Positions 43,594 to 46,128 of a DNA stretch of 64,000 nt are shown here, one piece after another. The notes beneath the pieces are model-generated. The model was not told where the DNA came from. It saw only the letters and a list, made by a program, of their open reading frames with translations, and did not search any database. The position numbers and the translations under genes are program-made. Source of the stretch: Bacteroidota bacterium. Lineage in GTDB: Bacteria; Bacteroidota; Bacteroidia; Flavobacteriales_F; PHOS-HE28. Within the stretch, counting starts at the first letter, position 1, and every line of letters begins with the position of its first letter. Location: assembly GCA_029573495.1 (NCBI GenBank), contig JAKQEI010000104.1, positions 1 through 64,000 of the forward strand, written 5' to 3'.

Positions 43594-44618
43594 ACCAGCG
43601 CTCCGTCCTGATCATTTACACCGGCGGGACCATCGGCATGGTCGCCGACCCACGGAGCGGCGCCCTGCACCCCATGGACCTTTCCCACCTGGAGGAGCAG
43701 GTCCCCGAGCTCGACCGGATGAAGGTGCGTCTCGGCGCAGTGTCCTTCGACCAGCCGATCGACAGCAGCGACATGCGACCCGCGGACTGGGTGCGTATCG
43801 CACGGATCATCGGTGAACACTACGACGCATATGATGGATTCGTCGTGCTGCACGGTAGCGACACGATGGCCTACACTGCCAGCGCGCTCAGCTTCCTGCT
43901 GGAAGGCTTGAACAAGCCGGTGGTCCTCACAGGCTCGCAACTTCCAATCGGCACCATCCGGACCGATGCGAAGGAGAATCTCATCACCGCGATCGAAGTG
44001 GCAGCAGCTTGTGATCAGCACGGTCGCGCCGTGGTACCGGAGGTGGCCGTGTATTTCGAGTACAGCCTGTATCGGGGCAATCGCACGGTCAAGGTGCATG
44101 CCGAGCGGTTCGAGGCCTTCCGATCACCGAACCATCCGCGGCTGGCCGAGGCGGGTGTTCACCTCAAGTATGACCTCGCTGCGATACTCACCCACCGGAC
44201 CACTGGCTTGAAGGTGCATGACCGGATGGACGATAACGTTGGCGTTCTGCGGTTGTTCCCGGGCATCCGTGCGGAATGGGTGCGCCATGCGCTGGCCACA
44301 CCGGGCCTGCGAGCCGTGGTGCTGACCACCTTCGGGAGCGGCAATGGTCCTACGGATAGTGGGTTCATTGAGGCACTGCGAACCGCCAGGGAGCGGGGCA
44401 TCACCGTGGTGAACGTGACCCAATGCTTCGGTGGCCGGGTTGAACAAGGACGTTATGTGACAAGCCAGGCCTTTGTGGAACTCGGGGTGCTGAGCGGTGG
44501 GGATATGACCGTGGAGGCGGCTGTGGCGAAGCTGATGTTCCTGTTAGGGGAAGGACTGGATGGCCCTGCTTTGGCGCGTGCTTTCGGAACCTCTTTGTGT
44601 GGAGAGGTCAGCGGTTGA
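43590..44618 (+). CDS. ansA: Type I asparaginase
   Basis: VLIIYTGGTIGMVADPRSGALHPM; FVVLHGSDTMAYTASALSFLLEGLNKPVVLTGSQLPIGTIRTDAKENLI. Confidence 0.95.
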   Translation: MNQRSVLIIYTGGTIGMVADPRSGALHPMDLSHLEEQVPELDRMKVRLGAVSFDQPIDSSDMRPADWVRIARIIGEHYDAYDGFVVLHGSDTMAYTASALSFLLEGLNKPVVLTGSQLPIGTIRTDAKENLITAIEVAAACDQHGRAVVPEVAVYFEYSLYRGNRTVKVHAERFEAFRSPNHPRLAEAGVHLKYDLAAILTHRTTGLKVHDRMDDNVGVLRLFPGIRAEWVRHALATPGLRAVVLTTFGSGNGPTDSGFIEALRTARERGITVVNVTQCFGGRVEQGRYVTSQAFVELGVLSGGDMTVEAAVAKLMFLLGEGLDGPALARAFGTSLCGEVSG

Positions 44619-44667
44619 ACGGCAATATTCCTGATGCGGGGATCACCGGGAGTAGGATCGCTAGGAA

Positions 44668-44830
44668 CGGGCTTTCCCTTTCGGGGAGGGCTTCGACCAG
44701 AAGCCTATCGCTTCGCGATCACCTTCATCCGTTCCTTCATTTCGCCCAAGCTTCGCTTGGCTCATTCGCAAACGAATGAAGCCGCTTTGCAGCGGCTTCT
44801 GGTCGGCGGAGAGAGAGGGATTGCCCGAGA
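44668..44830. repeat. 163-bp tandem repeat, unit 1 (contains a 16-nt copy of the tRNA-Ser 3' end at 44807-44822)
   Basis: Near-identical to unit 2; begins cgggctttccc. Confidence 0.95.
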
Positions 44831-44985
44831 CGGGCTTTCCCATTGGGGGAGGGTTTCGACCAGAAGCCTATCGCTTCGCGATCACCTTCATCCGTTCCTT
44901 CATTTCGCCCAAGCTTCGCTTGGCTCATTCGGAAACGAATGAAGCCGCTTTGCAGCGGCTTCTGGTCGGCGGAGAGAGAGGGATT
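44831..44985. repeat. 163-bp-period tandem repeat, unit 2 (runs into the tRNA-Ser 3' end)
   Basis: Four hairpins: ATCGC-TTC-GCGAT, CCAAGC-TTC-GCTTGG, TCATTCG-GAAA-CGAATGA, GAAGCCGCT-TTGC-AGCGGCTTC; outer arms GACCAGAAGCC/GGCTTCTGGTC. Confidence 0.95.
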
Positions 44986-45056
44986 CGAACCCCCGTTACC
45001 CTTTCAGGTAAACACACTTTCCAGGCGTGCGCCTTAAACCACTCGGCCATCTCTCC
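44970..45056 (-). tRNA. tRNA-Ser (anticodon GGA)
   Basis: Reverse complement GGAGAGATGGCCGAGTGGTTTAAGGCGCACGCCTGGAAAGTGTGTTTACCTGAAAGGGTAACGGGGGTTCGAATCCCTCTCTCTCCG; long variable arm; 7-bp acceptor; CCA not encoded. Confidence 0.96.
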
Positions 45057-45066
45057 AGTGGGGCCG

Positions 45067-45074
45067 CGAAAATA
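45067..45074 (-). promoter_or_regulatory. -7 element TATTTTCG upstream of tRNA-Ser
   Basis: Plus strand CGAAAATA 11 nt from the tRNA 5' end. Confidence 0.6.
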
Positions 45075-45135
45075 GCGAAAGGCGCCGCTTCCCAACGCCT
45101 GCGACCCACTTGCCTACCTTTGCGAGCCTTTCGCC

Positions 45136-46128
45136 ATGGTCCGGATAGGTCCCATCGAACTCCCGGAGTTCCCACTCCTGCTCGCACCCATGGAAGATGT
45201 GAGCGATCCGCCTTTCCGGGCCTTGTGCAAGAAGCATGGAGCCGACCTGATGTTCACCGAGTTCATCAGCAGTGAGGGGCTCATCCGCCAGGCCGTCAAG
45301 GGCCTCAAGAAACTGGACATCTTCGAGGCGGAGCGTCCCATCGGTATCCAGCTCTTCGGCGGTAGCGAGGATGCCATGGAGGAGGCTGCGCGCATCGCCG
45401 AAGCAGCGCGGCCGGACCTCATCGATATCAACTACGGCTGCCCGGTACACAAGGTGGTTAGCAAGGGTGCCGGGGCCTGCCTGCTTCAGGATGTGGACAA
45501 GATGGTGCGCTTGACGGAGAAGGTGGTGAAGGCGGTTAAGTTGCCGGTCACTGTGAAGACGCGCCTGGGCTGGAACGAGGCGACCAAGAACATCATGGAA
45601 GTGGCAGAGCGCCTGCAGGATGTGGGGATCAAGGCATTGAGCATCCATGGACGTACGAGGGCCCAGCTCTACAAAGGACCTGCTGATTGGACCTTGATCG
45701 GTGAGGTCAAGAACAATCCACGCATCCGCATACCCATCTTCGGTAACGGCGATATCGATTCACCGGAGAAGGCCGTGGAGTATCGGGACCGCTATGGTGT
45801 GGACGGCGTGATGATCGGACGTGCGACCATCGGCCATCCGTTCATATTCAACGAGATCAAGCACTTCATCCGCTCCGGCCAGCGCCTGCCGCAGCCTTCG
45901 ATAACCGACCGCGTGGAAGCGGCACGTGAACACCTCCGCAGTTCCCTGGCTTGGAAGGGCCCTTGGGAAGGGGTGGTGGAGATGCGCAGGCATTATGGCA
46001 ATTACCTGAAGGGTCTCCCGAACGTGAAGGATGTTCGCCTCCGCCTCTGCACGGAACGGGAACCCGCGATCCTGGAAGAGATCCTGGACGAAGTAAAAGC
46101 GACCTACGAACTGGCTTCGGTGGCCTGA
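45136..46128 (+). CDS. tRNA-dihydrouridine synthase
   Basis: LLAPMEDVSDPPFRALCKKHGADLMFTEFISSEGL; DINYGCPVHKVVSKGAGACLL; LSIHGRTRAQLYKGPADW. Confidence 0.95.
   Translation: MVRIGPIELPEFPLLLAPMEDVSDPPFRALCKKHGADLMFTEFISSEGLIRQAVKGLKKLDIFEAERPIGIQLFGGSEDAMEEAARIAEAARPDLIDINYGCPVHKVVSKGAGACLLQDVDKMVRLTEKVVKAVKLPVTVKTRLGWNEATKNIMEVAERLQDVGIKALSIHGRTRAQLYKGPADWTLIGEVKNNPRIRIPIFGNGDIDSPEKAVEYRDRYGVDGVMIGRATIGHPFIFNEIKHFIRSGQRLPQPSITDRVEAAREHLRSSLAWKGPWEGVVEMRRHYGNYLKGLPNVKDVRLRLCTEREPAILEEILDEVKATYELASVA

Follow-up and report, generated by a model that had tools for sequence, protein, structure and literature searches.

A tRNA-tail unit of Bacteroidota, apparently an undescribed class of tRNA-attached RNA that spans the phylum, with a layout similar to Escherichia coli rtT

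Introduction

The closest described counterpart of the DNA studied here is rtT/RttR of the E. coli tyrTV locus (RF00391), a stable RNA that stands as an isolated oddity of the tyrT locus and whose gene, rttR, is annotated as a small RNA in the K-12 record. Its units of 178 bp lie in tandem directly behind a tRNA-Tyr gene, the single tRNA locus at which it is annotated, and each includes the tRNA 3' end, beginning in the T-loop (AATCC... in K-12). The T-loop is also a classical integrase site, and tRNA-targeting genomic islands and integrons likewise feature a tRNA 3'-end copy that starts in the T-loop and mosaic arrays with newer units beside the tRNA. REP/BIME palindromes, which are mobilised by RAYT (Y1) transposases, are, like the units described below, short extragenic palindromic elements (PMC3733652).

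Here, we compare these systems with an array behind tRNA-Ser(GGA) of a Bacteroidota genome, located in the window, by which we mean the whole 64,000-nucleotide stretch of DNA that was analyzed. Its units of 163 bp share with rtT the tandem arrangement directly behind a tRNA and the T-loop start of the copied end. Unlike genomic islands and integrons, they measure only about 160 bp and come without integrase or cargo; unlike REP/BIME elements, they are not dispersed. The tRNA-tail unit appears to represent a class of tRNA-attached RNA that spans the phylum and has not been described, with a layout resembling that of E. coli rtT. A literature search returned no description of it, which is weak evidence of novelty because subscription papers were mostly out of reach.

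The array in the window

The encoded 3' end of tRNA-Ser(GGA) stops at ...CCGCC, with no encoded A76. Behind it, a repeat search detected one direct-repeat family of two copies, each 163 nt long, spaced by 163 nt and 93% identical, in agreement with the near-identical tandem units that a sequence-only reading of this DNA had described. The parts of the array are as follows.

44968-45056, minus: tRNA-Ser(GGA), host gene of the array (ARAGORN; Rfam RF00005)
44858-44967, minus: unit 2 (tRNA-proximal), predicted four-way-junction block directly after the tRNA ...CC (fold; R2 match)
44957-44967, minus: unit 2, 5' strand of P1, GACCAGAAGCC, with its partner at 44858-44868 (inverted repeat I4)
44858-44868, minus: unit 2, 3' strand of P1, GGCTTCTGGTC (inverted-repeat search)
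44941-44962, minus: unit 2, hairpin A, GAAGCCGCTGCAAAGCGGCTTC, then ATTCGTTTCC; terminator-like (terminator scan)
44886-44944, minus: unit 2, arm B, with apex GAGCCAAGCGAAGCTTGGGCGA (fold; covariation at orthologous loci; apex pattern)
44870-44882, minus: unit 2, hairpin C, ATCGC-GAA-GCGAT (sequence; fold)
44842-44857, minus: linker GAAACCCTCCCCCAAT, consensus GAAGCC-CCCCC (sequence; comparison of tails)
44817-44841, minus: hairpin D, GGGAAAGCCCGTCTCGGGCAATCCC (sequence; comparison of tails)
44805-44822, minus: tRNA 3'-end copy, AATCCCTCTCTCTCCGCC (sequence)
44695-44804, minus: unit 1 (distal), predicted four-way-junction block, one substitution relative to unit 2 (repeat search; R2 match)
44778-44799, minus: unit 1, hairpin A, terminator-like (terminator scan)
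44655-44694, minus: unit 1, linker and decayed D (GGGAAAGCCCGTTCCTAGCGATCC), end of the array (sequence)

Both units are predicted to fold into a four-way junction made of the closing stem P1, hairpin A, the long arm B, and hairpin C. The genus covariance model R2 matches unit 2 (G000:C144:44852-44967, E=1.2e-15) and unit 1 (44689-44804, E=1.3e-15) about equally well. P1, an inverted repeat of 11-12 bp (CGACCAGAAGCC/GGCTTCTGGTCG), corresponds to the 11-bp closing stem of the sequence-only reading. Of the four hairpins in that reading, A, C, and the apex of B are as it described them, although the comparative structure joins them in a single closed four-way junction rather than leaving them as free hairpins. 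The proposed hairpin TCATTCG-NAAA-CGAATGA becomes a local alternative to arm B, and the lone substitution assigned to its loop would sit at the distal end of arm B in the junction structure.

The base of hairpin A in unit 2 competes both with P1 and with the base of arm B, and in the two units alike a T-rich tract follows hairpin A, giving it the appearance of a terminator in the terminator scan. The outer stem of hairpin D draws on the T-stem 3' strand within the copied tRNA end, whose 16-nt core, AATCCCTCTCTCTCCG, lies at 44822-44807 on the minus strand, as previously noticed, and is followed by CC. A decayed D at 44678-44655 in the tail of unit 1 extends the array to about 44655. Folded as RNA, the minus strand is more stable than its shuffles (z = -3.6, with 0/200 shuffles as good); the same strand folded as single-stranded DNA gives z = -3.9, and the plus strand folds more weakly (z = -2.1). 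No promoter-like sites were detected in 44500-45200. In the apex of arm B (e.g., 44923-44909 and flanks), GA/GA stand opposed and an A is bulged out next to a short hairpin (GAGC-CAAGC-GNA-GCTTG-A-GCGAG); by its sequence, the apex looks like a protein-binding motif.

The resemblance to rtT concerns layout. Tandem units, the tRNA 3' end, and T-stem-matching sequence recur in both, and the design of hairpin D is comparable, with the T-stem 5' strand repeated beside the copy (GAAGGAT...GTAATCCTTC in E. coli versus GGGA...AATCCC here, and GGGATCACG..GTAATCCC elsewhere in Bacteroidota). In contrast, a four-way junction that closes at the tRNA end is absent from the E. coli unit. The RF00391 model returned nothing over its cut-off in 44 genus genomes or in the window, with a positive E. 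coli control, and R2 had no match at the E. coli rtT locus. The parallel drawn from the sequence alone thus stands for the arrangement and finds no support as regards family membership, and we regard the unit as rtT-like in layout, which is less than a member of rtT. Above the gathering score, Rfam identified only the tRNA in the window, and on units at the loci in relatives nothing exceeded the cut-off except tRNA or tmRNA; a known RNA family was rejected at gathering and relaxed thresholds alike.

Distribution

The sequence-only reading had suggested checking other tRNA genes for the unit, and it is present behind further Ser, Pro, and Leu tRNAs of the same genome. Units of the same plan and different sequence follow tRNA-Ser(TGA) and tRNA-Pro(CGG), and behind tRNA-Ser(CGA) and tRNA-Leu(GAG) the units are single or decayed. 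The Pro(CGG) array of about four units is split over contigs C294 and C55 (L004 and L003) and ends in a tRNA-end copy; its copy number has probably collapsed in the assembly. A search of this 4.07-Mb genome for the B apex, allowing up to three mismatches, produced nine matches, all nine at tRNA-associated arrays, and a reversed control produced none. As the genome also holds no Y1 transposase, a dispersed REP-like element was rejected.

R2, which was built from ten units, matches 94 loci in 39 of the 45 genus genomes at E <= 0.01. Most of these genomes are metagenome assemblies, in which tandem arrays have probably collapsed in places. Eighty-seven of the 94 loci are directly 3' of a same-strand tRNA, from a few to 25 nt beyond its end, and the remaining seven are contig ends or later array units. 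The host tRNAs are Leu(GAG) (25 loci), Pro(CGG) (21), Ser(GCT) (13), Ser(TGA) (11), Ser(CGA) (11), and, more rarely, Ser(GGA) (4), Pro(TGG) (1), and Arg(TCT) (1). A second subtype (model R1), with apex CCGAGCTTGCTCGAAGC, is found behind Ser(GGA). Genus-wide, units occur regularly only at four Ser tRNAs, Leu(GAG), and Pro(CGG), out of about 42 tRNA genes.

Within the class (395 genomes), 14 matching genomes outside the genus represent seven other families (E <= 1e-7), and a phylum search added an eighth other family from outside the class; both searches underestimate the true frequency, as they relied on strict filters and a single model trained on one lineage. Every inspected class locus with a recognizable gene has a tRNA (Ser, Pro, Arg, Asp, or Met) or a tmRNA immediately upstream. 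Overall, the hosts comprise Ser, Leu, Pro, Arg, Asp, Met, and Gln tRNAs and tmRNA, across at least eight other Bacteroidota families, unlike the single tRNA-Tyr locus of rtT. The tmRNA gene (ssrA) is the host at L185, L222, and probably L190, and the tails of L185 and L222 carry a copy of the tmRNA 3' end.

The exact 19-base apex pattern GAGCCAAGCNNNGCTTGAGCGA has 36 matches in 31 stretches among GTDB genomes (264 Gb), where about two would be expected by chance for 19 fixed bases on both strands. Twenty-five of the 36 lie 43-53 nt behind a tRNA or tmRNA and five lie in arrays; four more are at contig starts or behind a truncated tRNA end, and two are elsewhere, in non-Bacteroidota. Nonlabens xiamenensis 1Q3, an isolate with a unit behind tRNA-Ser(TGA), provides a cultured carrier for comparative study.

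Conservation of the stems

The sequence-only reading had named the absence of homologous units and compensatory changes in relatives as grounds for rejecting a structured RNA, and covariance modelling found both to be present. Among 23 sequences from orthologous Leu(GAG) loci, 14 pairs changed on both sides, in 62 cells versus a shuffled mean of 16.5; the corresponding values are 17 pairs and 57 cells versus 16.1 for 20 sequences from orthologous Pro(CGG) loci, and 27 pairs and 102 cells versus 32.5 for the subtype II alignment. The observed covariation score was reached by 0/500 shuffles in each of the three alignments, values that are no probabilities, as the shuffles disregard relatedness, and slid controls scored far lower. 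For helix C, pairing is fair among the Leu sequences (79%) and poor among the Pro sequences (56%).

Mismatches within the stems are unevenly distributed between the strands. Read on the tRNA-sense strand, the ratio of G-U to A-C is 43:6 in Leu, 37:15 in Pro, and 7:1 in subtype II, and 96:59 in the wide, machine-made alignment A5. The cells of this test share ancestry, and the covariance model that retrieved the units in A6 and A7 itself gives G-U a higher score than A-C; the subtype II units in A3 were collected without such a model. Mutational bias was rejected as the source of G-U, since unpaired columns trend in the opposite direction, with more G-to-A than C-to-T (63:20 in stems versus 44:81 in unpaired columns; Fisher p = 9e-9, with non-independent cells). 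The asymmetry points to a structure selected on the tRNA strand, with the sense strand acting as RNA. An alternative to RNA is sense single-stranded DNA, in which G-T would likewise be tolerated over A-C.

A model for the unit

Covariation and the strand asymmetry of wobble pairs support the structured noncoding RNA that had been among the proposed explanations. Together with the observed architecture, location, copied tRNA ends, and array mosaicism, the covariation and the sense-strand bias in the stems lead us to favor, at about even odds (roughly 0.5), a structured RNA in the 3' trailer of Bacteroidota tRNA and tmRNA genes, arranged like rtT, transcribed by read-through, released by processing, and carried in recombining arrays. 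The unit would be transcribed with the tRNA through read-through of hairpin A, which may be the tRNA's own terminator built into the unit. The trailer would then fold into the four-way junction, with P1 starting at the first nucleotide past the tRNA ...CC and hairpin D next. The base of hairpin A (AGCCC/GGGCT in many units) could either pair as a terminator or be split between P1 and B, and the junction could branch-migrate between a terminating form and a read-through form. Cleavage at the tRNA 3' end would free the unit as a small RNA. With the host tRNA 3' end copied at the end of each unit, recombination between tail copies and tRNA 3' ends could duplicate, delete, and swap units, mostly among the four serine tRNAs. 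Two considerations bear on this model: several genus genomes have only a simple terminator at these same host tRNAs, which counts against it, and hairpin A is such a good-looking terminator that the rest of the unit is perhaps rarely transcribed.

Array growth

The tail of a unit copies its host tRNA's own 3' end. Requiring the last 14 nt of the host tRNA with at most two mismatches, and taking the expectation from shuffled ends, we found a copy at 19/25 Leu(GAG) loci (0.3 expected), 10/21 Pro(CGG) loci (0.05 expected), and 3/4 Ser(GGA) loci (0.05 expected). Hairpin D varies with the host: GGGA/TCCC for Ser, AGGA/TCCT or TGGA/TCCA in two Pro variants, CTGG/CCAG for Leu, and GAGA/TCTC behind one tmRNA. 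The Pro(CGG) array of the same genome and the Ser(TGA) array of G085 are bordered on both sides by a direct repeat of the tRNA 3' end; in the window, the repeat has decayed at the distal border.

In a rival explanation, the unit is a non-autonomous mobile cassette that inserts at tRNA or tmRNA 3' ends, beside the gene, rebuilds the end, and leaves a copy, with arrays arising by successive insertions like those of cassette arrays and a recombinase supplied in trans. The arrays of G027 and G007 are mosaics that fit it: newer units, 84-89% alike and also present at Ser(TGA) of G007, lie between tRNA-Ser(GGA) and an older distal unit that is common to G013 (79-86%). In G085, Ser(TGA) and Ser(GGA) are followed by nearly identical units that carry the 3' ends of their respective tRNAs; L014 has an ordinary terminator after the copied tRNA end, as is found behind the unoccupied tRNA of L015; and the copied core begins in the T-loop, the integrase site noted above. 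Other findings count against it. The genome of the window encodes only two tyrosine recombinases, both on other contigs and, from their number and size, probably XerC and XerD, and it lacks a Y1 transposase; no integrase adjoins the window array, whose neighbors are TatD, asparaginase, Dus, and FtsX-type genes; and 2.9 million viral contigs contain no exact match. These results led us to reject an integrase-driven island and carriage by phage, and they lend no support to the self-integrating element proposed from the sequence alone.

Inheritance also weighs against the cassette. The nearest relative of a first unit is at the same tRNA in another genome for 65/91 units and at another tRNA for 26/91, and the cross-tRNA pairs of high identity are all between serine tRNAs, a confinement that follows from homologous recombination acting on their common 3' ends. 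Recombination at copied tRNA ends explains the exchange without a dedicated enzyme, and we consider the cassette unlikely, if still a serious candidate. A bolder combination with our preferred structured RNA would describe phylum-wide, tRNA- and tmRNA-tethered cassettes, each a small RNA gene with a branch-migrating four-way junction that adds itself beside a tRNA, rebuilds its 3' end, and is freed by the tRNA-processing machinery. This is a speculation that we would not expect to hold in full; if true, it would link tRNA supply to a regulatory RNA.

Other explanations

The unit might instead be an elaborate terminator or insulator, in which hairpin A ends tRNA transcription, a mirrored half (C and an A-tract) blocks the opposite side, and P1 and B are mere by-products of the palindrome. 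Hairpin A and its T-rich tract look the part in both window units, and in many units hairpin A is followed by GGGCTTTTT, with the mirror AAAAAGCCC. We nevertheless judge this improbable. The strand asymmetry is unexpected if both strands function as RNA, hairpin D and the tRNA-end copy are left unexplained, and most other tRNAs manage with simple terminators. Convergent neighbors are not in excess (15 convergent, 24 co-directional, and 40 unclear in a crude ORF-length test), and a bidirectional terminator between convergent genes was rejected on this basis.

Least of all do we credit neutral palindromic debris, left by tandem duplication at the tRNA end and made complementary by template switching rather than selection: palindromes can be self-correcting, many unit tails decay, and copy number varies, yet DNA self-correction is blind to G-U tolerance and would not yield a one-strand preference for G-U over A-C, and the same fold and B apex are found at many tRNAs throughout the phylum. 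Of the recombination debris suggested earlier, the plain form is contradicted because the stems persist through compensatory change across species, and the recombination itself is retained, as it explains array growth and exchange among serine tRNAs.

The favored structured trailer RNA combines the layout of rtT with a different, strongly covarying fold at many tRNAs and tmRNA across Bacteroidota, so that rtT can now be approached comparatively, through parts that are defined. The findings suggest that a conserved class of RNA can reside in tRNA 3' trailers and that cassette-like arrays can grow at tRNA 3' ends without an obvious integrase.

Partial and degenerate copies

Several loci display fragments of the arrangement. 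L029, L020, L187, and L192 have distal tandem repeats of the 3' half of the unit (B apex, C, and tail) or of the tail alone, without the P1-A part. Short copies of the tRNA 3' end lie 100-140 nt downstream of tRNA-Gln(TTG) (GTGGTCGGTCAAC; L059, G000:C177) and tRNA-Lys(TTT) (CACAGCGGGATCAC; L046, G000:C284), where a second terminator-like hairpin is present and the four-way junction is absent. Behind tRNA-Gly(CCC), L004:216-400 (G000:C294) contains a degenerate copy of the part of that tRNA from the anticodon to the 3' end.
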